DNA of 13,625 nucleotides from Bacteriovoracaceae bacterium (GTDB lineage: Bacteria > Bdellovibrionota > UBA1018): the NCBI GenBank assembly GCA_023250795.1, contig JAHFAB010000008.1:1-13625 (forward strand), in the 5' to 3' direction. The stretch's first letter is position 1. Each line of letters opens with the position of its first letter. The position numbers were made by a program, and so were the translations under genes. A model generated the notes under the pieces. That model made no database searches, was not told where the DNA came from, and worked only from the letters and a program-made list of their open reading frames with translations. This document shows, in pieces, positions 1,657 to 13,625 of the stretch.

Positions 1657-1683
1657 GAGTAAAATAAAGCTAAATGACTCTTG

Positions 1684-3113
1684 ATGGAAACAGATGCAAA
1701 ACAAACTGGGCAGAAATTTGATAACGCAGTGGTCATGGGAGCAGGGATTGCAGGACTATTTACTGCACGAATATTTTCAGACTTTTTTAAAAAAGTAACT
1801 CTCATTGATAAGGATGATCTCCCCAATGAAGCTCTTTCCAGAAAGGGGGCGGCACAAGGAGACCATGTTCATATTCTTTTAAAACAGGGCCAAATGATTC
1901 TAAGCCGGCTATTTCCTGGAATCGATGCAGAGCTAGAAAAATTTAACATTCCTCGAGTCAATTGGGCCTCAGAATCGGTCTGGTACAATCGCTTTGGAGC
2001 TTCCTCTCCCTATTTGTCTCAGATTGAAACGCACTCTTGCTCAAGAATTCTTCTGGAATTCATCATGCGCCGGTTTGTCACTCGGATTCCTAATTTGCAG
2101 ATTTTATCGAAAACAGAGGCTGTTGGGCTTTATTCAATCAATATGGGTAAAACAATCACTGGAGTCCAGGTTAAAACATCCGAGGGAAAAGAATTCACAC
2201 TCGAATCTGATTTGCTAGTTGACGCCTGTGGCAGAAACAGCCCGCTCCCCCACTTTCTCAAAAGCCTAGGTTTTGGCTCTCCTGAAACTATTTCTGTCGA
2301 ATCCAATTTAGGATATGCCGGAAGACTTCTCAAGAAACCTAAAAATAATCCATTTGCTTGGAAACAAGTCTATGTCCAGCTGGCCCCTCCAGAAAACCAA
2401 AGGGGCGGGATTCTCATCCCAATCGAAAATGATCTTTGGCTGGTCAATTTGATTGGAGCAGGTTCAGATCGTCCCCCCGTCGAAGAAAAAGCATATCTAG
2501 AATTTGCTAAAAGTCTACGAAAGCCTGATATTTATCAGGCTTTCGTAGACTTTTAGCCGCCGAGCCGGCAGGACCCATTCGGGTCTTTCGCCGCACCAGC
2601 AATGTCTTAAGAAGATATGATCGGCTCTCTCGTTGGCCGAAGGGTTTAGTGACGCTAGGGGATTCGGTTTGCGCTTTTAACCCTGTCTATGGCCAAGGGA
2701 TGACGGTCTCTGCGCTTGAGGCAATGTTATTGCAAAAGTACCTCCTAAAGGCGGGGGTAAGCGCGAGGGCGCATATTTCAGCCACAAACTGGGAAAACTC
2801 CTTTCAGAAGAAACTATATCGACTTCTACAAAATCCATGGACCCTTGCGACTTCTGAGGATATGCGAATCTATTCTTGTGTCTGCACCGGCACAAAAAAA
2901 ACCGTAAAAAACCGCTTCCTCCATTGGTTTCTCGATCAAATCCTCAAAGCCTCCGTTTCAAACACTCATGTACATGAGACTTTTCTGAGCGTGGTACACA
3001 TGCTCAAAGAGCCAAGCGCTCTATTTTCTCCAAGGATCTTAAGTAAAATCCGTCCCTATTCGGAAGGAGGGCGGGCTGCTTGTTCACATGATGTGATGAA
3101 TAGTAGAATATGA
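1684..3113 (+). pseudogene. FAD-dependent monooxygenase/oxidoreductase, frameshifted
   Basis: Two consecutive frames together encode one protein of about 470 residues, the usual length for this type of FAD-dependent aromatic hydroxylase/epoxidase-like enzyme. The first part (1684-2556, ATG at 1684) has the Rossmann dinucleotide motif MGAGIAGL near the N-terminus, then RKGAAQGDHVHILLKQG, and ends early with ...DIYQAFVDF and a TAG at 2554. Homology resumes in the -1/+2 frame from about 2556 (AAEPAGPIRVFRR...) and includes the second FAD motif GDSVCAFNPVYGQGM (about 2660-2703). The break coincides with the right arm of a perfect inverted repeat (2506-2557). Two start-like codons (TTG 1681, ATG 1684) are adjacent; neither has a clear Shine-Dalgarno. 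The gene is more GC-rich than the SBP genes nearby. It is probably inactive, unless the frameshift is a sequencing or assembly error at the hairpin. Confidence 0.8.
2506..2557. repeat. Perfect 25-bp inverted repeat with a 2-nt centre
   Basis: The left arm 2506-2530 (GCTAAAAGTCTACGAAAG...) is the exact reverse complement of the right arm 2533-2557 (...CTTTCGTAGACTTTTAGC); only TT (2531-2532) separates them. The palindrome lies inside the monooxygenase reading frame. The left arm encodes the family-like AKSLRKPDI. The outer part of the right arm holds the premature TAG and the frame change. Confidence 0.97.
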
Positions 3114-4639
3114 ATCTATACGCTTCTGCAGATGAAACGCGTCGTTTATTGATTACAGAAACGAGCGAGCCTACGTCTTTTGATCCTCTGGATGCGGACG
3201 CATGGCAAAACATGTCTGTTGCGCGGATGCGTTATCTTACTCCAATTGAAGCTTCACGCACTTCTGGGCTGATGAGTACTGTTCTAAAATCATACACATA
3301 TGATGAAAAAAAACTCACTATGAGTTGGGAACTGCGTACAGGCTTACATTTTAGTGATGGCTCTCCAATCACTGTCATAGATGTAGCCTTCAGTGTGGTT
3401 CGTTTTGCATCGGCTCATCCTGATTTTCCAGTCATAAGGGAGTTAGTGGGCGTAGAAAAATGGGTAAAAGAAAGTAAAAAAAACAAAAAATCACCTTTGG
3501 AGAGCCTTCCCGAAGGAATTAGAATTGAGAATAATCAGATCATTTTTAAATTTATTAATCCCGTTGAGCACCCACTATTTCGATTCTCTTTGGAAATTTT
3601 TTCCATCATACCCAAGTCAAGTGTAGATCTAAAAACCAATCAATTAAAGCAGCCTATACCACCCGCGAGCGGTTATTATGATATTACCGAAAAAACACCA
3701 GAAATGATTACTTTTGAACGTAGAAAAGAGCTCAAAGAATTTAGAACTTATGCACCAAATCGAATACAGTTTATATATATAAATCCAGATTCAGTGGCAT
3801 CCCATTTGAAAACGCTTGACCAACACACCGTTATTTCAGGAAACGAGCACAATTATATTCCATCAGATATATCTCAATTTGCTCAAAACAGTGAGATACG
3901 ATATCTACAAAGTTCATGGTTTACAGCTTTTATGCTTAATCCTAGACAGAAACCATTTCAATCAAAGGGATGTAGAGTTGTTTTTGCCAATCTATTTCGA
4001 GATGTTTTTTCGAGAATTTTTTCAAACCAATTACAAGTAGAAGCCAGTGTTTTTACTTCAATTCTGCCTGGATATTTATCATATGCTGCGCTCAAAAAAA
4101 ACACATCCCCACTTTCAAAAGCTGAAGAAAAAAAATGCCTAGATGCAATACGAAAATCTCCAATTACTTGGGGTGTTACGGAAGGAAGCACTCCCATTTT
4201 GTATCAAACAACTATGAAGGAAATGTACAAGGAACTGGGGACAAAGCTTGCCGAGCCCATTCACTTTACATCTCGTGTCGAACAAGGAAAGGCCTTCGCA
4301 GAAAATAAAGTCTCAATCTATGATGCGTTTACAGGCTTTTGGCCTAGTGATCCTATAGGGGACATTCAAATGTTATTTACTCCAAATTTCCATTTAGTTT
4401 TAAAATTTGCGGCTTCGGACAACAAACTACAAATTCTTCTTAAGGAGCTTCAGACAAGTCAAAAACGAGCAAAGAACCCATTTAAGACGGTCAACCAGCA
4501 TATTTTTGAGTCTGCATATTTTAATGTTTACATGCATGTTCGTAAGTTTTTTATAGCTAGAAAAGATGATCAACGTTTACGTAATATTCCTTTAGCGATA
4601 GCCTCGGTTTCGCCTTGGGATCTTTTCGCAGCGGAGTGA
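3110..4639 (+). CDS. Family-5 solute-binding protein (OppA/DppA-like), no signal peptide
   Basis: This 509-aa protein matches the extracellular solute-binding protein family 5 pattern: an early strand followed by SEPTSFDPLDAD, then LTMSWELRTGLHFSDGSPITVIDVAFSV (the 'L+.G+.FsDG.p+tA.DV' segment), and a late SDPIGDIQMLF segment similar to DPFADIRFMF in the two paralogues to the right. Family members usually bind peptides in the periplasm. This one begins MNLYASADETRRLL with no hydrophobic stretch, and an in-frame TAG at 3104 rules out a longer N-terminus. Its ATG overlaps the TGA of the monooxygenase (ATGA at 3110-3113), which suggests translational coupling. It may be a cytosolic derivative or a gene that lost its signal-peptide exon by rearrangement. 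No transporter genes adjoin it. Confidence 0.8.
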   Translation: MNLYASADETRRLLITETSEPTSFDPLDADAWQNMSVARMRYLTPIEASRTSGLMSTVLKSYTYDEKKLTMSWELRTGLHFSDGSPITVIDVAFSVVRFASAHPDFPVIRELVGVEKWVKESKKNKKSPLESLPEGIRIENNQIIFKFINPVEHPLFRFSLEIFSIIPKSSVDLKTNQLKQPIPPASGYYDITEKTPEMITFERRKELKEFRTYAPNRIQFIYINPDSVASHLKTLDQHTVISGNEHNYIPSDISQFAQNSEIRYLQSSWFTAFMLNPRQKPFQSKGCRVVFANLFRDVFSRIFSNQLQVEASVFTSILPGYLSYAALKKNTSPLSKAEEKKCLDAIRKSPITWGVTEGSTPILYQTTMKEMYKELGTKLAEPIHFTSRVEQGKAFAENKVSIYDAFTGFWPSDPIGDIQMLFTPNFHLVLKFAASDNKLQILLKELQTSQKRAKNPFKTVNQHIFESAYFNVYMHVRKFFIARKDDQRLRNIPLAIASVSPWDLFAAE

Positions 4640-4834: not shown

Positions 4835-6307
4835 TTATTCGCGATTTAACCGCCATATTGCATCACTTGCTTGTACTTTTGATAAATCAAAGCTCCAGGG
4901 TTTTCTCACTAGTGCCGTATAGGGTGAAACTGCCATCGGTATACTGACACCCTCGGCGATCGTATTAAAATGCAAAACTCTAGTCAAATTCATACGCTTT
5001 TTTTTATCTTCTACAGACATATACTTTCGAAGCCAGTCGTCAGCATCTTTTTTATACAAATGGAAATATCCAGCCCCCAAGTAATAAGAGAGTAAACCTA
5101 TGTCTTCTAAAAAACCCATGTCAGGACCACTGACAATAAAGTCAGGCTCGTCTTCTTTATTTTTGAAAAAATCAAGCAACCCCGGCACTTTATTGACAGC
5201 CAAGAAAACTGTTTTTGGAAAATTAGTCTTCAATGCTGGGGTGTCAGGTTTAAAAAACTCCATCCTTACAATCCAGGCTAACATTTTCTTGTTTGGATTC
5301 AGAATGTTTTGTACGGAGGAAAATTTGTAGCGTATGGCGTCGAGTTGTTTCTTCGTAAGTGCAGCCTCGCCAAACACTGAAAATAATTGTTCTGATGGTT
5401 CATATTCATCGTGATTTTCAAAGGTAGTTAAGAATATTTCTTTTAATTTTGCACCAATAGAAAGACGCTCGGTAATCGAGAATCGTTTTTGCCCCTTTTG
5501 TGTGAAGGTCACGGCAAATGTTCTCAATGGAAGGGTTTTGTGAAGATGTATATTACTATTTTTTTGTGCATACCGAATCATGCGATCATGAGACACTTGA
5601 TCAACAGTTGTGATTAGATCAATCTTATTTTGAGACAATAATGCAAGTGATTCTTCTGGATTTTTAATTCCAACAGGAACTAAAAAAATGTGCTGAGGCA
5701 TTGTCTTTTTGAAATGAAAATGATTTGGATTGGCCGCTAACTCTATGTTTCCATTTTTGTCTTCATTTAAAACGAAGTAAGGACCAGAGGTATTTCGATA
5801 CCCTGTTATATCAAGATTTTTTTTGTCAATCGACCCTCGTGGTATAATGCCGAAATCTATGGCTGCAAGCATAGGGAAAAGAAATATTTTTTTCTGATTA
5901 AACTTTAATACTAGGGTTGTATCATTATCTCGTATTTCTATACCAGGACAGTCGTCATCCAGAGAAGACATTTTTGTATTTGGGCAAAGCATATCTTTTA
6001 GATCGCCATGTGTATTTGTGCCCACAATCATTATTCTTTTAAAAGTCAACTCTACGTCTTTAGCGTCAATAATTTGATCGTCTATAGTTCTGAGATTTTT
6101 TCGAATTTTAAAATGCGCTTCATTACCAACCCAGTAAAATTGCACAGCAACTGCAGATACTAGCTCCCCACTAGGAGTATATTCAACAAGCGGGCTGATC
6201 GTATTCTCAAGAAAAGTATACTCCGGAGAAAGCTGTATTTTGATTGGATCATAAAAAGAGACGGGTTTATTGTACGGGAAAGCCACTCTAAGCTCACGAG
6301 CACCCAC
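4835..6307 (-). CDS. Family-5 solute-binding protein, no signal peptide, coupled to yccF
   Basis: This 490-aa protein is a divergent family-5 solute-binding protein. It starts directly with the first strand of the mature fold (ELRVAFPYNKPVSFYDP), continues with the 'LVEYTPSGELV...' and 'HFKIRKNLRTIDDQIIDAKDVELTFKRI' segments, and has a degenerate FLEDIGLLSYYLGAG segment where relatives have DPxxDI. No signal peptide or membrane anchor precedes this. The start is GTG (6305-6307), immediately after the TAA (6308-6310) of yccF; AAAAAAGG about 8 nt upstream may serve as ribosome binding site. With the in-frame stop adjacent, no longer start is possible. It is likely translated by coupling with yccF. 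Either it works in the cytoplasm, or the yccF junction removed its export signal. It is much less similar to the other three SBPs than the two 504-aa copies are to each other. Confidence 0.75.
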   Translation of the reverse strand: MGARELRVAFPYNKPVSFYDPIKIQLSPEYTFLENTISPLVEYTPSGELVSAVAVQFYWVGNEAHFKIRKNLRTIDDQIIDAKDVELTFKRIMIVGTNTHGDLKDMLCPNTKMSSLDDDCPGIEIRDNDTTLVLKFNQKKIFLFPMLAAIDFGIIPRGSIDKKNLDITGYRNTSGPYFVLNEDKNGNIELAANPNHFHFKKTMPQHIFLVPVGIKNPEESLALLSQNKIDLITTVDQVSHDRMIRYAQKNSNIHLHKTLPLRTFAVTFTQKGQKRFSITERLSIGAKLKEIFLTTFENHDEYEPSEQLFSVFGEAALTKKQLDAIRYKFSSVQNILNPNKKMLAWIVRMEFFKPDTPALKTNFPKTVFLAVNKVPGLLDFFKNKEDEPDFIVSGPDMGFLEDIGLLSYYLGAGYFHLYKKDADDWLRKYMSVEDKKKRMNLTRVLHFNTIAEGVSIPMAVSPYTALVRKPWSFDLSKVQASDAIWRLNRE

Positions 6308-6697
6308 TTAAACGACCTTTTTTCCCACTGGAAAAAAACTAAGTTTTGCCAATTTCCAGTGCTGTAAAGCAAATGGAATACCGATGATCGTGACCCCGAA
6401 GATAATGACATAGAAAAAATGAATGAGAAATAACCACCAGCCGGCCAGTACAGCCCAAAGAATATTTCCAATCAGACCCAAGCCTCCAGTGCCAATGTCC
6501 GACTTCCCGGTGACGTCTTCCCTAGAAACAACAAATGAGCCAAAGGGTAAAAAACTGAGAACACCAATATTAAATGCAGCACGTGCCCAGGGGAGCCCAA
6601 CAATAGTAACTGCCAAGATCAAGCTGGCCAGGAACCAGTTAATCGCTACGTGGAGTCCACCAAAAATAAACCAAAGCAAATTCAGAACATGTTTCAT
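6308..6697 (-). CDS. yccF: YccF-domain inner membrane protein
   Basis: This 129-aa hydrophobic protein has the YccF (DUF307) pattern of two internal repeats. Residues 6-53 (NLLWFIFGG ... TIVGLPWARAAF ... SFLPFG) are mirrored by residues 78-125 (NILWAVLAGWW ... TIIGIPFALQHW ... SFFPVG). Each repeat holds long membrane segments, so it is an inner-membrane protein. The molecular role of the family is unknown. I chose ATG 6697 rather than the longer frame from 6763 because GGTGGA (6704-6709) sits 6 nt upstream and because the upstream codons belong to the remnant of a YcaO gene. The next gene starts on the nucleotide after its stop, so the two form an operon. Confidence 0.85.
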   Translation of the reverse strand: MKHVLNLLWFIFGGLHVAINWFLASLILAVTIVGLPWARAAFNIGVLSFLPFGSFVVSREDVTGKSDIGTGGLGLIGNILWAVLAGWWLFLIHFFYVIIFGVTIIGIPFALQHWKLAKLSFFPVGKKVV

Positions 6698-6728
6698 ATG
6701 TAATCCACCCTCTACTTGCTGGGGTTTA

Positions 6729-6788
6729 GCAATAAAGAATATTTCTATATTTCTAAACTGCAAGATTCAATTTTTTAACCCTATCCAT
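6729..6788 (-). pseudogene. Remnant of the 5' end of a YcaO gene (copy 1)
   Basis: The 60 nt from ATG 6788 match the first 60 nt of the intact YcaO gene (11312-11253) at all but five positions. They read MDRVKKLNLAV, then TAG, KYRNILYC, whereas the intact gene reads MDRVKELNLAAWKYRNILDC. Homology stops abruptly at 6729, about 20 nt before the yccF ribosome binding site. The ATG overlaps the SBP copy 1 end by 22 nt, exactly as in copy 2. The rest of the gene was deleted or never duplicated. Confidence 0.9.
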
Positions 6789-8281
6789 TGAAAATCTGTT
6801 GGAGGTAAAACAGTGTCTAACATGGAAAAATCGATATGTTTTTTTGCCCATAACCCCATGGAGAAATGTCCTATTGGCCAAATTACTGCTTGATCCCACA
6901 GTAATTCATTAATTTTTTGAGGATCAAAATTTTCATTTGCAAGTTCTTTAAGGATTCTACCATCCGTATCAGGAAGTCTAATACCCTCCTTAGAGAGAAA
7001 CATAAAACGAATATCGGCAAAAGGATCTTCGATGAGGATACCAGTTGCAAGCAATGCAAAATCAAACGAGTGAATTTTTAAGAGAGGATTTTTCTCTTGT
7101 CTAACTTTTTTTAAAGGAATTTTTTGACCTTGGATTTTTAGATTTAATTTTTTTGCTATTTTTTCCATGGCTCCGTCAAAAGGATCAAAAAATGGATTTT
7201 TAGACCAGGTATGCACATATTTTAAGCTTTGACCTTTTTTAGAGGGGGGTGAGGATTTTGGGTTATTTTTAAAATCAGTAGATGCTTCTTTTATATTGGC
7301 CATAGTTAGAGGGAAAAAAGAATAAGTAGGTTTAACTCCAGCCTGAATCATTGCTCTATAAAATTCATTTCTTAAAAATCTTCTTTTTTCCTTACTGTTA
7401 CAGATGCTGTTTTTATCTGGCCAGGAAACGCAAATGACATATGCAATGTCAGAAGCAAATGGTCCGTAGAAAATTCGTTCCTTATTTAAAGTTAAGTCGT
7501 TTGATCCTCCTGAGATGATATCAGAATTGAATTTTATTTCTGGGTTCCAAGTGATTAAAATATTTTTTGGGGCATTTGGATGCCGAATTTCTGGTAAAAA
7601 ATCTTCGCGTCTTTTCAGCTCTAAACTTTCTTTTCTCCAGGATTCTATTTTATATCCTCCTGACGAGATGATTTTCGTTGGATTTTTCCACTCTCCAGTT
7701 TTTAAGTTATAGTCATTTGGATGGACTACAGAATAAAGTCCAAAGCTGATTGTTTCTAATAATTTTTTAAAAGGTTTTACAAGTCGAACTATTATGACTT
7801 GGTCTTTTATTTCAAGACCAGGTATAGATGACTCAGGGCTTGTAATTTTTTCAAATCCTTTTAATAATTCTAGGAAACCACTTTGAGAATTTTTCTTTTT
7901 TTGAAAATAAGCCATCCTCATCCAAGAATAGACAATATGTTTTGGAGTGATTTCGTCTCCATTTTCAAATTGCAATCCATTTCTAATTTTGAACTTCCAT
8001 TCTTTGTAGTCATTAGAAGGGTCCCAACTCTCAGCTAAAATTCCTTCATATTTTCCAAGGCGATATTGAGTGAGAACAGAGCTTAAAACAGAGCGAAAGC
8101 AAATATGATGAATTAAGGCGCCATATTCAATGGGATCTGTTGAATACGGGGGGGTAGATGACCAGAGAGTAACTAAATTAGTTTTTGACTCATATTTTTT
8201 CATGTATTGAAATAGAAAAACAAATGACACTAAGAATAATATTAAACCAACACTCACCCAGCTGTTTTGAATATGCTTCAT
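6767..8281 (-). CDS. Membrane-anchored family-5 solute-binding protein, cassette copy 1
   Basis: This 504-aa protein has an N-terminal hydrophobic segment (about residues 9-26, VSVGLILFLVSFVFLFQYM) followed by KKYESK. It has no lipobox and no clear AxA cleavage site, so it probably remains anchored in the inner membrane with the binding domain in the periplasm. The body has family-5 features: LAESWDP near residue 80, 'WKFKIRNGLQFENGDEITPKHIVYSW' and EDPFADIRFMF in the C-terminal third. It is collinear with the SBP at 11291-12805, with the same length, roughly 70-75% identity by eye and an almost identical end (VLPPTDFQWIGLKN). It starts 34 nt after the stop of peptide gene 1 without a visible Shine-Dalgarno, which suggests coupled translation. 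No ABC transporter partner is in the window, so capture or sensing of the neighbouring secreted peptide is a reasonable inference. Confidence 0.85.
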   Translation of the reverse strand: MKHIQNSWVSVGLILFLVSFVFLFQYMKKYESKTNLVTLWSSTPPYSTDPIEYGALIHHICFRSVLSSVLTQYRLGKYEGILAESWDPSNDYKEWKFKIRNGLQFENGDEITPKHIVYSWMRMAYFQKKKNSQSGFLELLKGFEKITSPESSIPGLEIKDQVIIVRLVKPFKKLLETISFGLYSVVHPNDYNLKTGEWKNPTKIISSGGYKIESWRKESLELKRREDFLPEIRHPNAPKNILITWNPEIKFNSDIISGGSNDLTLNKERIFYGPFASDIAYVICVSWPDKNSICNSKEKRRFLRNEFYRAMIQAGVKPTYSFFPLTMANIKEASTDFKNNPKSSPPSKKGQSLKYVHTWSKNPFFDPFDGAMEKIAKKLNLKIQGQKIPLKKVRQEKNPLLKIHSFDFALLATGILIEDPFADIRFMFLSKEGIRLPDTDGRILKELANENFDPQKINELLWDQAVIWPIGHFSMGLWAKKHIDFSMLDTVLPPTDFQWIGLKN

Positions 8282-8315
8282 AGTAGCCAGTTAAAAACCA
8301 CAACTAAAGTATCTT

Positions 8316-8465
8316 CTAACCGATCTCCCGATTCCCACTGCCCATTTCGAATTCAGACCTGTCCTTCAGACTCTTGCTCTGATCTGTCTGCACCTGATCC
8401 GCTAGTGCATTGAGACCCAATAAAGACAATACAACAACTAATAATGCCTTGATCGAGTTTTCCAT
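8316..8465 (-). CDS. Small secreted peptide, cassette copy 1 (49 aa)
   Basis: ATG 8465 to TAG 8316 encodes 49 residues. The first 22 form a classical Sec signal sequence: MENSIK, a hydrophobic core ALLVVVLSLLGLN, and a signal peptidase I-type site ALA before D23. The predicted mature part is DQVQTDQSKSLKDRS followed by EFEMGSGNREIG, and it has no cysteine. GAGG (8474-8477) lies 8 nt before the ATG and a strong promoter lies just upstream. The gene has a collinear paralogue at 12834-12980. The first 15 mature residues are identical in both although several codons differ silently, evidence of selection on the peptide itself. It is the first gene before SBP copy 1. The family is not known to me; a pheromone-like or RiPP-like precursor is inferred from context. 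Confidence 0.85.
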   Translation of the reverse strand: MENSIKALLVVVLSLLGLNALADQVQTDQSKSLKDRSEFEMGSGNREIG

Positions 8466-8473
8466 TATAATTA

Positions 8474-8514
8474 CCTCAGTCACGGATATCGCATATGGTT
8501 GTATTTTTTGTCAA
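8474..8514 (-). promoter_or_regulatory. Promoter and RBS of peptide gene 1
   Basis: On the minus strand TTGACA (8509-8514) is followed after 18 nt by GATATC (8485-8490) preceded by TGC, an extended -10 element. A-tracts (GAAAAAATC) lie just upstream of the -35. GAGG at 8474-8477 is the ribosome binding site. The same layout is kept before peptide gene 2. The -10 is a weak match to consensus. Confidence 0.65.
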
Positions 8515-8649
8515 GATTTTTTCGCTTCGAACAATTCGTGTATGAATCACCTAAAATAGTTGTGGATCTAAATTTTTATTTTGGACAATCAAGGCTTAAC
8601 TTCGACCGCTCAACTCTTCATGACCATGTCATGAGCCTCGTTTGATTTT

Positions 8650-10230
8650 TTACGACTGTACTTTAATAGGAACAAACCCAGCCAAACCCTTGGGGATGAG
8701 TTTTACTCCGAGCTTCTGACAGCGCTCTCGGATTTTAGATTCTTCAAATCGACTGGTCACCAAGATACTTTGCTTCGTAATACCGAGCGTTTCGCTGAGA
8801 TCCAGTCCGTTGTCGGTTTGCCCCAGTAATTCGAAATCTAAAAGATAAAGTTCAGCGCTCGCTGCGACAGGTTTAGATATAAACCACTCTTGGACCGCTT
8901 CTGGAGTTGAAAAATGATGGACGGTGATGCCCTGTTTGTTTACATGAAGGGACTCAAAACGAGCTCGCCATATATGATGAATTGAGCTGTCGTCATCCAA
9001 GATAATAACAGTAGAATTGGGTAAAAGCTTAATTTCAGAAACAAACCATTCCGGTGGATGGACCGAAGGCAGAGTGATGATGACAGTCGTGCCGCGCTCA
9101 TTTGATTGTATACTCAGTTCCCCTCCCCAAGATTGTACCGAGGTGCGTGCGTGGTAAAGCCCCAGTCCGGATCCACCCACTTTTCCATGTGATTCTCCTC
9201 TTTTTCCTATCTTTTCTAAGATTTCAGGGGGAATCCCTTTTCCGTTGTCTTGTATTTGAATCTGGATTTTATGATCCCCGCCAGACAAACTGAGCGAAAT
9301 TTTCCCCACGTCTTCCAAAGCCTCCACGCTGTTATTAATGAGATTGGACAAAACTCTTTTGAACTCGGTCGGCTGTATATTTGCAAACAACCCATACGAA
9401 GTGGCGTCTATATTAGCTTCAATTTCGATCTCCATCTGCGAGCGATATTGCATACGCTTTTCTGTGATTAGGGGATCAATGAGGCTAGAGAGGAGATGCT
9501 CAGAGAGGGGTTCTGCGTGCGTTATTGCTGGGTCTTGAGTAGGATCATGGGCTGCGTCTTGTGTTGTTTTTGAGTCGTGGTTGGCTTTTTGATGAAACTC
9601 TCGATCTTTATCTAGCAAATTATTGGCAATATCTCGTATGCGACCAATAGCACTTCTCAGCAATACTCTGGCGTCTTCTGGCAATGTTTGCAGATCTGGC
9701 TCTATCACGTTGAGCGCTGCGAGCGGCGAGCGGATGTCGTGCGCGAGTTGGGCTGCAAGTTTACCTAACCTTATTTCAGCTTCCAATTTTTTTCGCTCAG
9801 CTGCTTTTGCACTCATATTGAGAGAAAACAAAAGTAATCCTTGAAAAAATACAAAAATTACAAATGAAAACTGAAGTGATTTTGGAAGCTCAAATGTAAA
9901 ACGTATTTCTATTGGCTCTTGAGTATGGCCTATAATAGTGGTTACTGTTTGAAAAAGACCTTCTCCACAGGCCCCAGTTGTCTTACGGTAGAACTCGTTT
10001 TCACCTCTATAGCCAACCGCACAAACCCAATGATAGGAGCTTGAAAGCTGATTCAATCGGGTGGCTAAAGAAAACACATCTGACGAATTTAATTCAGATA
10101 AATTTTGTTTCTCAAAATCCACAGCAAACTGGTGTGATGATTGAGTAAGGTAAAAACGAAATATAACTACACACGACAAAACTGATGTTAAGGCTATTAA
10201 AAGGGGGGAGTATTTTCTTATAATTATCAT
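8650..10230 (-). CDS. Hybrid sensor histidine kinase with C-terminal receiver domain
   Basis: The 526-aa protein has a membrane segment at about residues 8-27, a periplasmic loop of about 90 residues holding two cysteines (C70, C88) that could form a disulfide, and a second membrane segment at about 120-138. The dimerisation domain has the H-box LAHDIRSPLAAL (His164). A low-complexity Asp/His/Gln/Thr linker (about 205-240) precedes the ATPase domain: N-box NLINNSVEAL (about 296-305), G1 DNGKGIP (328-334), G2 GGSGLGL (352-358). The C-terminal receiver domain is complete: acidic pocket LDDDSS (411-416), phosphoacceptor Asp465, Thr492 and Lys514. Signal would pass from His164 to Asp465 and then to a phosphotransferase or regulator outside the window. 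It lies 107 nt after the YcaO gene and before peptide promoter 1, so it is a candidate receptor or regulator for the peptide cassettes. The ligand is unknown. Confidence 0.92.
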   Translation of the reverse strand: MIIIRKYSPLLIALTSVLSCVVIFRFYLTQSSHQFAVDFEKQNLSELNSSDVFSLATRLNQLSSSYHWVCAVGYRGENEFYRKTTGACGEGLFQTVTTIIGHTQEPIEIRFTFELPKSLQFSFVIFVFFQGLLLFSLNMSAKAAERKKLEAEIRLGKLAAQLAHDIRSPLAALNVIEPDLQTLPEDARVLLRSAIGRIRDIANNLLDKDREFHQKANHDSKTTQDAAHDPTQDPAITHAEPLSEHLLSSLIDPLITEKRMQYRSQMEIEIEANIDATSYGLFANIQPTEFKRVLSNLINNSVEALEDVGKISLSLSGGDHKIQIQIQDNGKGIPPEILEKIGKRGESHGKVGGSGLGLYHARTSVQSWGGELSIQSNERGTTVIITLPSVHPPEWFVSEIKLLPNSTVIILDDDSSIHHIWRARFESLHVNKQGITVHHFSTPEAVQEWFISKPVAASAELYLLDFELLGQTDNGLDLSETLGITKQSILVTSRFEESKIRERCQKLGVKLIPKGLAGFVPIKVQS

Positions 10231-10337
10231 ATTAAATAATTAATATAGACCATTTTTATATTACAAATACAAGCAAATAAAGAAGGTAAACTTAGTAATT
10301 TTGTTTTACCGGTCGATCTTTTACATATTGGTGGTCA

Positions 10338-11312
10338 TTAAAACATAAAATAATCTTCTCCTGATGCCGTATGATTAAGCAAACTTGGGTCAAACAGGCA
10401 GCGCCAGACAGTCGCATATTTACTCCATGCCCCCTTAATCTCAGTATCCAATAAAAGTGCCGGCTTAGACATGTTATTGTGAGATCTATTTATATAAGAA
10501 ATAAATTTTTTAAACCCATTATTGGAGGCAAAGTATAAGAGTCTTTTTTCTTGTGCTGTTTGGACTTTATTAAGGCTAGACGCTTCTTTTGTAAAAAAAA
10601 GATCCAATACATAGATGTTTCTCCATAGTTCAATGAGGGCTTTTTTGTAAGATTTTTCATAACTATTACAGGACGCAAACCCATAAGCGTAGGTGTTTGT
10701 AGTTTTTGATTTTGTGAATACAATGGTTATTGAATATTCTACCCATGGGGAATCAATTTCTAAAATACCGACATTATGGGGAGTAATGTTTTCTAAAATA
10801 TTTTTTGAATCTATGGAGTTTAATGCCAATGGTTTAGTAACCATCATGGTTGGATCTAAAACATGCAATGACTTGGTCTGTAGTTTTTCTTCCCACCATG
10901 CGCAAACGCTCCATCTTTCAATCGCTTCAGATAGAGCAATACCCCTAACAGAATGTTTAGTAAGTCCTGGAAAAGCAGCCATTCCTGATGTTGAGGGATC
11001 AACATCAAAAAAGTACTGTGAAGCATTTTGGCTTTTATAGGTATCAATAAAAGCCCATCTTTCTAACGCCTCTGAGATAGCGGTTTGACAAGCTTCGTAT
11101 CTGTATATGCTACTCCCAGTACCAGCAGCTGTTCCATAGATTATATTTTTTTCAAAAAATGGTACATTCAAATAGGCAAGGGCTTCGTAACCCATTTTGT
11201 TTGGAGCAATTTCTCTCTTGCTAATGCTTATCTTTTTTATAGGACTATCCTTGCAATCCAGAATATTTCTATATTTCCAAGCTGCAAGATTCAATTCTTT
11301 AACCCTATCCAT
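10338..11312 (-). CDS. YcaO-family ATP-dependent backbone-modifying enzyme
   Basis: This 324-aa protein shows the three YcaO nucleotide-binding segments in order: GTAAGTGSSIYRYEA...AISEALERW (residues 60-86), DPSTSGMAAFPGLTK...LSEAIERW (105-134), and YGFASCNSYEKSYKKALIELW (210-230). The middle segment has H-S where relatives usually have E-E before the helix. YcaO enzymes activate a peptide backbone amide with ATP to make azolines, thioamides or amidines. This one is short and lacks the C-terminal PxPxP of many azoline-forming members; it ends GEDYFMF. ATG 11312 overlaps the SBP copy 2 stop by 22 nt. The start is supported by the conserved N-terminus in the copy 1 remnant. No E1-like/ThiF partner, leader-binding protein or dehydrogenase is present, and the neighbouring peptides lack Cys. 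The substrate is therefore uncertain; the secreted peptide is the obvious candidate. Confidence 0.85.
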   Translation of the reverse strand: MDRVKELNLAAWKYRNILDCKDSPIKKISISKREIAPNKMGYEALAYLNVPFFEKNIIYGTAAGTGSSIYRYEACQTAISEALERWAFIDTYKSQNASQYFFDVDPSTSGMAAFPGLTKHSVRGIALSEAIERWSVCAWWEEKLQTKSLHVLDPTMMVTKPLALNSIDSKNILENITPHNVGILEIDSPWVEYSITIVFTKSKTTNTYAYGFASCNSYEKSYKKALIELWRNIYVLDLFFTKEASSLNKVQTAQEKRLLYFASNNGFKKFISYINRSHNNMSKPALLLDTEIKGAWSKYATVWRCLFDPSLLNHTASGEDYFMF

Positions 11313-12805
11313 TGGAAATCTATGGGAGGCAAAACGGTGTTAATCTCAGAAAAATCAATGTGTTTTTTTGCCCAAATACCAAAAGAAAAATGACCTACAG
11401 GCCACACTACAGCTTGATCCCAGATAAGTTCATTAATTTTTTGAGGATCGAAGTTTTCTTGTTCAAGTTCTTTATGAATACTGCCATCAATGTCTGAAAG
11501 CCTAATCCCTTCCTTTGATAGGAACATAAAGCGAATATCTGCCATAGGGTCATCGATAAGTATGCCTGTTCCCAACATGGCGACGTCAAAAGTCTGTGTT
11601 TTTAAAAGAGGATCTTTTTCTTTTTGAACCTGTTGTTGCGTAATATTTTTCTTTTTCGGTTTTAGGTTTAATTTTTTTGCAATCTTTTCCATAGCTATAT
11701 CAAATGGATCAAAAAAAGGGTTTTTGAACCAAGTATGAACATATCTTAATGTAAATTTTTTCTTGGAATTTGTAAAAAAATTTGTGTTGTTTTCAGTTTT
11801 GAATAGGGACTCCCTAACGTTAGCCATTGTCAAAGGGAAAAAAGAAAAGGTTGGTTTAATTCCATCTTGTATTAATGCTTTATAGAATTCATTTCTTAAA
11901 AGGACTCTGTTTTCAAGGTTGTGACAAATACTATTAGCATCTGTCCAAGAAGCACAAATCACATATGCGATATTTGAAATAACGGGCCCCTGAAAGACTC
12001 TGTTAGTCCCTAACTTTTTTTCATTAGAACCTCCAGAGATAAGATCAGAATCAAGTTTTTTTTCCGGATCCCACGTAATGAAAACATTTTCTGGAGCTTG
12101 AGGATGTCTTATTTCAGGTAAAAAATCTTCGCGTCTTTTAAGTTTTATACTTTCTTTTCCCCAAGAATCAATTTTATAGCCTCCTGATGAGATGACTTTT
12201 TTTGGATTTTTCCATTCTCCTGTATTTGCGTCATAATTTTTTGGATGAATTACTGAATAAAGCCCAAAACTAATTGTTTCTAATAGTTTTTTACATGGTT
12301 TTGTAAAATATAGCGTAATGGTCTGATCCTTTACTTGTATTCCTCGTATGGATGATTTGGGACTTGTGATTCTTTCAAATCCATCTAATAACTCCAAGAA
12401 TCCATTATGAGAGTTTTTCTTTTTTTGTAAATAAGCCATTCTCATCCAAGAGCGGACAATGTGGTCTGGAGTAATTTCATCCCCGTTTTCAAAATGTAAA
12501 TCTTTTCTGATAACAAATTTCCAACCTTTGTATTCGTCAAAGGGGTCCCAGCTTTCTGCTAAAATACCTTCGTACTTTCCGAGGTGGTATTGCGAAATAA
12601 CTGAGCTTAAAATAGACCGAAAGCAAATGTGATGAGAAATTACATCATATTCCAAAGGGTCTGTTGAAAAAGGGGCATGCGTAGACCAAAGCGTAATTAA
12701 AGATTTTTTAGATTGGTGGTTTTTCATTATCTGCAAAACTAAAATAAAGAAAACTACACACAAAAGAAAAGTAAAACACCACTTTCCTTTTAAGGAGAGT
12801 TTCAT
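11291..12805 (-). CDS. Membrane-anchored family-5 solute-binding protein, cassette copy 2
   Basis: This 504-aa protein is collinear with the copy 1 SBP (6767-8281). It has a basic N-terminus (MKLSLKGKW), a membrane segment (about residues 10-27, CFTFLLCVVFFILVLQIM) without lipobox or clear cleavage site, and then the family-5 binding fold with LAESWDP, 'FVIRKDLHFENGDEITPDHIVRSW' and DDPMADIRFMF. It ends VLPPIDFQWIGLKN. Differences from copy 1 concentrate in the middle and in a variable stretch near residues 340-355 and 390-400. It begins 28 nt after the stop of peptide gene 2 with no visible Shine-Dalgarno, and its last 22 nt overlap the YcaO start, so the three genes appear to be one translational unit. 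The inferred role is binding of the secreted peptide at the inner-membrane surface, either for sensing or for hand-over to an unlinked importer. Confidence 0.85.
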   Translation of the reverse strand: MKLSLKGKWCFTFLLCVVFFILVLQIMKNHQSKKSLITLWSTHAPFSTDPLEYDVISHHICFRSILSSVISQYHLGKYEGILAESWDPFDEYKGWKFVIRKDLHFENGDEITPDHIVRSWMRMAYLQKKKNSHNGFLELLDGFERITSPKSSIRGIQVKDQTITLYFTKPCKKLLETISFGLYSVIHPKNYDANTGEWKNPKKVISSGGYKIDSWGKESIKLKRREDFLPEIRHPQAPENVFITWDPEKKLDSDLISGGSNEKKLGTNRVFQGPVISNIAYVICASWTDANSICHNLENRVLLRNEFYKALIQDGIKPTFSFFPLTMANVRESLFKTENNTNFFTNSKKKFTLRYVHTWFKNPFFDPFDIAMEKIAKKLNLKPKKKNITQQQVQKEKDPLLKTQTFDVAMLGTGILIDDPMADIRFMFLSKEGIRLSDIDGSIHKELEQENFDPQKINELIWDQAVVWPVGHFSFGIWAKKHIDFSEINTVLPPIDFQWIGLKN

Positions 12806-12833
12806 GAAGAGTGATTTTCAACGCTATTTTTCT

Positions 12834-12980
12834 TTATATGCCAACGTTTCCACTACCCTTTTCTAGTATTGACCTGTCCTTTAGACTTTTACTCTGATCT
12901 GTCTGCACCTGATCGGCTAGTGCATTAAGACCCAATAACGACAAAACCATAACTAATAATGCCTTAATCGAGTTTTTCAT
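12834..12980 (-). CDS. Small secreted peptide, cassette copy 2 (48 aa)
   Basis: ATG 12980 to TAA 12834 encodes 48 residues: n-region MKNSIK, hydrophobic core ALLVMVLSLLGLN, cleavage site ALA before D23, then mature DQVQTDQSKSLKDRS followed by ILEKGSGNVGI. GAGG (12989-12992) is 8 nt before the ATG, identical in spacing to copy 1. Compared with copy 1, the signal sequence and first 15 mature residues are nearly or fully identical, while the tail keeps only E and GSGN plus a terminal Gly-Ile/Ile-Gly. The peptide has Ser and Thr but no Cys, so a YcaO enzyme could make oxazolines or thioamides but not thiazoles. It is the first gene of the complete peptide-SBP-YcaO unit. I do not recognise a named family. 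Confidence 0.85.
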   Translation of the reverse strand: MKNSIKALLVMVLSLLGLNALADQVQTDQSKSLKDRSILEKGSGNVGI

Positions 12981-12988
12981 TACAATTA

Positions 12989-13029
12989 CCTCTGCCAGGA
13001 ATATCGCATAAAGTTGTATTTTTAGTCAA
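12989..13029 (-). promoter_or_regulatory. Promoter and RBS of peptide gene 2
   Basis: On the minus strand TTGACT (13024-13029) is followed after 18 nt by GATATT (13000-13005) with an upstream TGC, and GAGG at 12989-12992. Upstream GAAAAAATC and the spacer AAAAATACAAC are the same as before peptide gene 1, so both copies are probably expressed and controlled alike. Confidence 0.65.
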
Positions 13030-13114
13030 GATTTTTTCGGTTCTGCGAAGTAATCCCGAATCGGTTTTTTGTTTACCCCCTTTTGCATTGGGAGTGTATA
13101 TTCATTTTACCAAA

Positions 13115-13625
13115 ATGCGAGAAATCGGTAGACTTGCTCTAAATGTTACCATTATTGGGCTCTTGGGTCGCACTTACTCCATAGTCGATCAAATATTTGC
13201 ATCCAAGATTTCTCCTGAGCATTTACATGCCCATGTATTGATCAGTTACATCCCGTTTTTTGCAACTACAACGGGGATAATCTTCGGTTACACACTGCTT
13301 GTTTTGTTTGCAAAATCCAAAAATGACCAGGAGATCAATCAGCTTCTAACTGGCTCACTAGCAGTTGCGATAAGTCTCATATTCCTTCCTTTCTCTTTAC
13401 TCCATCTATTTGCAAAGTCTATTATTGTATTTTTAAATCTAGAAACAGTGAGTGGTTCGGAACCTTATTTAAAATTGCAGGTATTAGTCTCGGTATTTTT
13501 GATTGTAACAACGATATTTAAATATGCTTTGATTTCATCGAAAAGTGGAAAAACTGTTATTATTGCAGATGTTTTTGGAAACATTTTCAATATGATGGGT
13601 AACTGGGTATCCATAACGTTCTTAC
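13115..13625 (+). CDS. MATE-family efflux transporter (3' partial)
   Basis: The frame runs open to the window edge, giving 170 codons from ATG 13115. The N-terminus MREIGRLALNVTIIGLLGRTYSIVDQIFASKIS resembles the first helix and loop of MATE exporters (which typically read 'LalP.+.g.ll...y.+vD...vg'). Further hydrophobic helices follow (FATTTGIIFGYTLLVLFAKS, LLTGSLAVAISLIFLPFSLL, VLVSVFLIVTTIFKYALISS). MATE proteins export drugs or metabolites by Na+ or H+ antiport. GTG 13094 is an alternative start in the same frame. A TATATT at 13097-13102 could be a -10 element, which would make the ATG almost leaderless. It is divergent from the peptide 2 promoter, about 85 bp from its -35, so shared regulation is possible but unproven. 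Confidence 0.7.
   Translation, partial: MREIGRLALNVTIIGLLGRTYSIVDQIFASKISPEHLHAHVLISYIPFFATTTGIIFGYTLLVLFAKSKNDQEINQLLTGSLAVAISLIFLPFSLLHLFAKSIIVFLNLETVSGSEPYLKLQVLVSVFLIVTTIFKYALISSKSGKTVIIADVFGNIFNMMGNWVSITFL

Follow-up and report, generated by a model that had tools for sequence, protein, structure and literature searches.

A conserved gene module of small peptide precursor, YcaO enzyme and histidine kinase in Bdellovibrionota and Verrucomicrobiota that looks like an undescribed chemical-signalling circuit

Introduction

Peptide pheromones that act through two-component receptors belong mainly to Gram-positive bacteria, with few Gram-negative examples. Here we describe a conserved gene module on a contig of 13,625 bases (JAHFAB010000008.1 of assembly GCA_023250795.1; the whole contig is referred to below as the window) from a Bacteriovoracaceae bacterium of the Bdellovibrionota, whose 2.43-Mb draft genome consists of 473 contigs and is 76.9% complete. 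The module combines a small secreted-peptide precursor, a solute-binding protein (SBP), a compact YcaO enzyme and a histidine kinase, and looks like an undescribed chemical-signalling circuit. It resembles the agr and fsr systems (AgrD, AgrB, AgrC and AgrA) in having a precursor with a variable tail, a modifying protein and a histidine kinase, and in one clade a regulator as well. Unlike them, it occurs in Gram-negative phyla, carries a Sec-type signal peptide in AgrB's place, and includes a YcaO, an SBP that is likely a co-receptor and a sigma-54 regulator. No AgrB-type protease was detected among the window proteins scanned (a set that leaves out the open reading frame (ORF) at 6308-6763) or among five proteins of a related locus, L134.

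Other described systems share single parts with the module. Compared with microcin B17 (McbA-D), there is no McbB- or McbC-like partner among the window proteins scanned, and the module has a precursor with a signal peptide, a kinase, an SBP and a compact YcaO with an aromatic C-terminus. Compared with the pheromone-binding SBPs PrgZ and Bacillus OppA (with its Phr peptides), and with AapF, the SBP of the module is read as membrane anchored and is paired with a kinase, with no permease on the contig. ItfA/ItfB, an amidine-type ribosomally synthesized and post-translationally modified peptide (RiPP) of Bacteroidales, is similar in that a Gram-negative YcaO is involved and the precursor is modified near its C-terminus (PMC10352776). 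That paper stresses peptidase-containing transporters and GG leaders, neither of which was seen in the module. A literature search by title and abstract start found no description of the module, and as preprints and most subscription papers lie outside its coverage, novelty is unproven. Every protein family involved is known, and there is a fair chance that the module is a form of peptide two-component signalling that makes up a class of its own.

The gene cassette and its small peptide

The module genes of the window lie on the minus strand in the transcription order peptide copy 1, SBP4, YcaO, histidine kinase, peptide copy 2 and SBP3:

13029-13000, minus strand: promoter of copy 1, TTGACT-18-GATATT (consensus match and upstream similarity to copy 2)
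12834-12980, minus strand: small secreted-peptide precursor copy 1 (48 residues, tail ending in GSGNVGI)
11291-12805, minus strand: SBP4, a family-5 SBP (504 residues; PF00496 and structure model)
10338-11312, minus strand: compact YcaO enzyme (324 residues; PF02624)
8650-10230, minus strand: histidine kinase (Pfam; homologues beside the cassette in relatives)
8485-8514, minus strand: promoter of copy 2, TTGACA-18-GATATC (matches the copy 1 promoter)
8316-8465, minus strand: small secreted-peptide precursor copy 2 (49 residues, tail ending in GSGNREIG)
6767-8281, minus strand: SBP3, 68% identical to SBP4, directly downstream of peptide copy 2

An earlier note on this DNA had described peptide copy 1, SBP4 and YcaO as a complete cassette. 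All three ORFs are intact where it had placed them, and its spacing is right, with a 28 nt gap between peptide and SBP and a 22 nt overlap between SBP and YcaO. The three genes therefore stand, but not their completeness, as the kinase (8650-10230) and the second pair of peptide and SBP (8316-8465 and 6767-8281) had been overlooked.

The small peptide gene of the window is under purifying selection, with tails that have diverged between its two copies. Copy 1 has a hydrophobic N-terminus and, by eye, a signal-peptidase-like site between ALA and D, and the copies share 87% identity over 46 residues. Between them, 16 of 31.5 synonymous sites (51%) and 10 of 112.5 nonsynonymous sites have changed, which gives a ratio of nonsynonymous to synonymous divergence (dN/dS) of 0.11. 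Two amino-acid changes fall in codons 1-37 and five in codons 38-48, and the GSGN residues are kept despite three silent changes. A leader that has hardly changed, followed by diverged tails, is the pattern that a change of specificity would be expected to leave. Upstream of both copies, 54 of the first 63 nt, promoter included, are identical, as against 16 of the next 63. The promoter that had been claimed for copy 1 finds support in these upstream bases, given that synonymous sites differ so widely, but not in a consensus scan by itself, which gave 13 matches in 8000-13625 against 16.7 in shuffles. An ORF in the same place in a relative (L013) is 61% identical over 41 residues. Together, the dN/dS value, the upstream identity and the L013 ORF indicate that the peptide ORF is a gene under selection, with a promoter of its own and a faster-evolving tail. 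Among nine precursor pairs compared, eight had a dN/dS of 0.08-0.51 and the ninth was saturated.

The peptide had been said to fit no nameable family, and this agrees with our scans, in which no precursor reached a curated cut-off (10 small peptides in Pfam, 9 in NCBIfam). We attribute the weaker matches, below the cut-off (for example Phr_nterm, E 0.15), to the signal-peptide-like start. With the peptide as query, the two window copies were the only sequences that a homology search returned, and copy 2 was the sole other match to copy 1 in the incomplete genome at E 1.

SBP4 is a member of the family-5 (OppA-type) SBPs by both sequence and fold: it matches PF00496 at 72.5 bits (cut-off 32.4), and its structure model (predicted local distance difference test score 93) shows an OppA-type fold with an N-terminal helix at 3-33. 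We read SBP4 as membrane anchored. The model is closest to AapF, which has been solved with a signalling molecule, tied with OppA, MppA and CntA, and is near NikA. The YcaO likewise belongs to its superfamily, with a PF02624 match of 29.3 bits (cut-off 25.7) and a YcaO fold. A profile search of PDB sequences returned only MusD, weakly. The YcaO is not a SagD-type cyclodehydratase of the thiazole/oxazole-modified microcins (TIGR03604 at 24.6 bits, cut-off 219.25), and no E1-like or TfuA partner was found among the window proteins scanned or in the part of the relatives' neighbours that was covered. One scan of viral_contigs gave no relatives of the YcaO, and a viral origin was rejected on these grounds. 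The kinase has two N-terminal membrane segments (by eye), a HisKA domain with H164 in the motif HDIRSP, and a HATPase domain. Its C-terminus is degenerate and receiver-like (PF00072 at 13.5 bits, under the cut-off of 30.2), and the window encodes no separate regulator.

Conservation of the module across relatives

A YcaO search of 58 related genomes gave 8 positives, the window's own included, and a YcaO profile was positive in 13 of 286 genomes in the class of an Opitutus genome and in 33 of 289 genomes of the wider Bdellovibrionota-type group (centre genome included in each). Named species genomes contributed 46 loci, and the cultured Coraliomargarita sp. SDUM461004 has two. After removal of duplicates (L035, L039, L041 and L063, equal to L014, L013, L016 and L057), 90 loci were annotated with YcaO, SBP and kinase profiles, 41 of them Bdellovibrionota-type and 49 from Verrucomicrobiota, mainly Opitutae. 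A kinase was counted if it lay at most 1000 nt upstream or 700 nt downstream of the module. The members of the near-identical pairs L013/L015, L131/L134 and L132/L136 were each counted singly, so the locus counts are not fully independent.

The co-occurrence in related genomes on which the earlier note had staked its cassette was borne out in the Bdellovibrionota-type loci, where an SBP adjoins the YcaO upstream in 37 of 41 and a candidate precursor ORF lies ahead of this pair in 21 of 41 (L127 and L160 being looser cases). A kinase is near in 32 of the 41. Twelve carry a sigma-54 regulator upstream (Pfam-confirmed in two loci), and 11 of these have precursor, SBP, YcaO and kinase, while the twelfth (L158) ends at a contig edge; these 11 loci hold the linked precursor, kinase and regulator of an agr-type system, together with SBP and YcaO. 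In the Verrucomicrobiota, the kinase is present in 46 of 49 loci. Co-occurrence thus supports the candidate Gram-negative modified-peptide signal or RiPP system that had been proposed, and the kinase strengthens it.

The exceptions are varied. L159, L161 and L163 have no upstream SBP but one about 240-410 nt downstream of the YcaO. L016 has no adjacent SBP; one lies elsewhere in its genome (L195, 3925-5463), where a small ORF with a signal peptide precedes it (5420-5611). In L196 (3-2638), an SBP gene and a kinase gene share 4 nt, and the 8 kb fetched contain no YcaO. Nine loci had no counted kinase (L014, L029, L127, L130, L137, L158, L159, L161 and L163); L014, L029, L158 and L163 reach a contig end on one side, the SBP of L130 is a fragment, L127 has a divergent kinase 1.7 kb off, and L159 has its kinases after an SBP that itself follows the YcaO. 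L140 has four same-family SBP ORFs around one YcaO and kinase.

These counts bear on the alternative that the genes are neighbours by chance, with an SBP for ordinary oligopeptide uptake, a YcaO that has nothing to do with it and a small ORF that is spurious. SBPs are indeed numerous, with four in the window by Pfam scan. However, the adjacency is found across deep branches, the ORF is under selection, and the control counts are near zero: among control genes taken from the same loci but outside the module, a kinase lay within 700 nt of 2 of 106 in Verrucomicrobiota and 0 of 91 in the Bdellovibrionota type, and an SBP within 700 nt of 0 of 106 and 1 of 91, respectively. We therefore rejected this explanation, which is scarcely credible.

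The patchy distribution (13/286 and 33/289 genomes) would suit an antimicrobial RiPP whose production the adjacent two-component system controls and in which the SBP would serve sensing or immunity, and bacteriocin clusters under two-component control are known. L016 has a nitroreductase-like ORF (by eye; 10186-10767) 6 nt after its YcaO. On the other side, no recurring transporter, dehydrogenase or immunity gene was seen by eye in seven loci and the upstream sides of 16, which were not scanned systematically, and signal-peptide precursors are unusual for YcaO peptides. We consider an antimicrobial role improbable.

The module is probably also present in Elusimicrobiota. The protein-database lists of YcaO and SBP relatives had 12 longest-contig sizes in common against 0.3 expected, in a comparison of 56 of the 120 listed YcaOs with 74 of the 96 SBPs, chosen by hand and not at random. 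One shared pair is on a contig of 68,600 bases and its YcaO is named Elusimicrobiales; the shared longest-contig size and this protein name are the whole basis for the assignment.

Precursor families and YcaO phylogeny

A generic criterion for hydrophobic ORFs picked out 45 of 81 modules and 24 of 376 control genes (L015 was kept out of the control); as this was blunt, we used profiles. In the Verrucomicrobiota, a signal-peptide-like ORF lies ahead of the YcaO in 44 of 46 assessable loci (L048, L049 and L052 are cut by a contig end and hence not assessable). Of these, 39 were found by profile and five (L057, L059, L060, L062 and L154), missed by their own profile at E 0.5, by eye. L051 and L152 have no clear precursor, and in L065 the precursor ORF is fused in frame to the YcaO. 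The profile was built on five precursors (L022, L027, L037, L046 and L061) and run on 9513 small ORFs from the 90 loci. Its matches at E 0.5 or better were solely ORFs on the YcaO strand, placed from an overlap with the YcaO start to 734 nt ahead and mostly within 100 nt. It recovered 34 of the 41 assessable loci that had been held out. Among the 43 Verrucomicrobiota precursors examined, 41 have a cysteine in the tail, 20 have a C-x2-4-C motif, and five have tandem core repeats (twice in L036 and L058, three times in L056 and L155, four times in L153), in which they look like multi-copy pheromone precursors.

The Bdellovibrionota-type precursors fall into two further kinds. Those of the window's clade (the two window copies, L013, L020, L025, L055 and L126) are short, their tails being either rich in Gly/Asn or basic, and only one of the seven (L055) has a cysteine. 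In a distant clade, the precursors are mostly 113-134 residues long (69 in L162), and all 13 have (S/T)Q(D/E) among roughly the last 20 residues. A profile trained on four of these found eight further loci, with L129 added by eye; its one weak match besides (E 0.49) was to the Verrucomicrobiota precursor of L059.

The cysteines could point to a peptide that scavenges metals or nutrients, for which the YcaO would make a chelating group, the SBP would recognise the loaded peptide and the kinase would sense supply. The C-x2-4-C motifs would suit such a role, as would the SBP fold, since it is tied with CntA and near NikA and since family 5 includes nickel and staphylopine binders. Nevertheless, cysteine is nearly absent from the precursors of the window's own clade, and all 12 permease matches in the genome are on contigs other than the window's, which also leaves SBP4 without the partners of an oligopeptide ATP-binding cassette importer there. 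We give this explanation little chance.

The precursor kinds follow the phylogeny of the enzyme. A maximum-likelihood tree was built of 79 YcaOs, with fragments and duplicates left out (L013, L015, L048, L049, L051, L052, L054, L061, L063, L065, L158 and L162). All 42 Verrucomicrobiota rows were labelled by group, including L152, with no clear precursor, and L154, with no cysteine. These 42 rows form a group on one branch (100/99), as do the 11 rows with (S/T)Q(D/E) (100/99), and the six short-tail rows are on one side of a branch with 97/67, the second value being under the usual threshold. With the 20 unlabelled rows not counted, the three labels need two changes on the tree, which is the minimum and was matched by none of 200 shuffles. 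Eleven deep rows form another group (99/76), ten without a precursor and several on long branches.

A proposed signalling circuit

From the gene order, conservation, coding selection, protein families and folds we infer a circuit in which a two-component system detects a peptide signal that YcaO has modified and Sec has exported, the SBP serving as co-receptor, a reading that we hold to be probable. In this circuit, the cell would make a short precursor carrying a signal peptide of the Sec type, and the compact YcaO would use ATP to modify its C-terminal core in the cytoplasm, ahead of export. The product could be an azoline, a thioamide or an amidine, and the modification may vary between clades, as a cysteine is present in nearly all Verrucomicrobiota cores and missing from most Bdellovibrionota cores. 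Sec and signal peptidase would then export and cleave the precursor, releasing a short tail peptide into the periplasm, from where it may cross the outer membrane. In Bdellovibrionota, the membrane-anchored OppA-type SBP would bind this peptide and act as co-receptor for the neighbouring histidine kinase, whereas in Opitutae the kinase has a propeller-repeat sensor of its own. The phosphate would pass to a receiver, which in one clade may be that of the same-operon sigma-54 regulator and elsewhere an internal or unlinked one. These roles are suggested by the way the genes travel: the peptide moves with the SBP (the second window pair and L195) and the SBP with the kinase (L196), which fits a peptide ligand, a YcaO modifier and a receptor made up of SBP and kinase. 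In the window, the duplicated peptide-SBP unit with its diverged tails may provide two ligand-receptor pairs beside one kinase. The purpose of the circuit could be density sensing or self-monitoring.

Several observations weigh against this circuit. The main one is that no nearby precursor was found at 17 of 38 assessable Bdellovibrionota-type loci (L014, L029 and L138 are cut by contig ends), which argues against a universal pairing of peptide and YcaO, and 10 of these 17 are in one deep YcaO clade; elsewhere, the RiPP hallmark of a short selected precursor gene beside a modifying enzyme is present. No SBP occurs in any of the 49 Verrucomicrobiota loci. The SBP is thus not universal to the module, and the three-gene cassette of the earlier note represents one form of it. 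The SBP fold also binds metals and sugars. The Bdellovibrionota cores are alike in little sequence, and after its signal peptide L013 has no cysteine, no serine and one threonine, so that one chemistry for all is unlikely. Azoline-forming YcaOs carry a proline-rich C-terminus, and those in our alignment (A1), in which the aromatic C-terminus of the compact YcaO is seen, do not. The distant-clade YcaO of L134 scores 22.7 bits with PF02624, under the cut-off of 25.7, and the widest circle of the YcaO family therefore rests on our own profile. L013 and L015, which are of one genus, both have a fragmented YcaO as well as a broken or truncated SBP, which suggests decay of the module or an assembly error; the system may be lost there. 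We know of no precedent for a cytoplasmic YcaO acting before Sec export. Finally, no proteases, exporters or target genes caught our eye in the neighbour lists, which were not searched systematically.

That no exporter gene was seen by eye in the module could also mean that the modified peptide stays in the periplasm as a regulatory ligand or co-factor of the SBP and kinase and reports the state of export or of the envelope, making the module a cell-autonomous sensor of the envelope or life cycle. Small tails with signal peptides, an SBP read as membrane anchored and a kinase that is usually near are all in keeping with this, but tandem cores and the tail divergence of the window copies fit a diversifying signal better, and we regard such a sensor as unlikely.

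The secreted signal that we prefer may represent an undescribed class of Gram-negative peptide pheromones that are Sec-exported, YcaO-modified and in some cases encoded as tandem repeats, with dedicated two-component receptors in which SBP and propeller kinase replace each other, in Bdellovibrionota, Verrucomicrobiota and probably Elusimicrobiota. This wider proposal is a tentative one, to which we give slightly less than an even chance. If the module does signal, it offers testable sets of precursor, enzyme and receptor in groups whose communication is almost unknown, and a new job for YcaO enzymes. It would also provide predicted core peptides for synthesis, with core borders marked by the tandem repeats.

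Other genes of the window

Divergent from the peptide gene, the plus strand at 13088-13624 holds the start of a MATE-like transporter gene (TIGR00797 at 30.7 bits, under the cut-off of 147.4). At the other end of the window, a flavoenzyme gene (1681-3113) is split into two frames (1681-2556 and 2649-3113), with weak matches under the cut-off to QhpG and geranylgeranyl reductase. The last 4 nt of the second frame are shared with a further SBP gene (3110-4639). We considered this SBP and the flavoenzyme as a second module of the same kind and rejected it: relatives of the first flavoenzyme piece were found in 12 of 289 genomes, and none of the nine of these neighbourhoods that were fetched and examined had an SBP of the same family. 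Instead, the flavoenzyme relatives in L197 and L200-L204 (and L205, without the last gene) stand in a recurring gene row. By eye, this row includes genes of P450 type, of prenyl-chain type (with a DD(L/F)AD motif) and of thioredoxin-fold type, and it may represent a terpenoid pathway of the Bdellovibrionota that has not been described.

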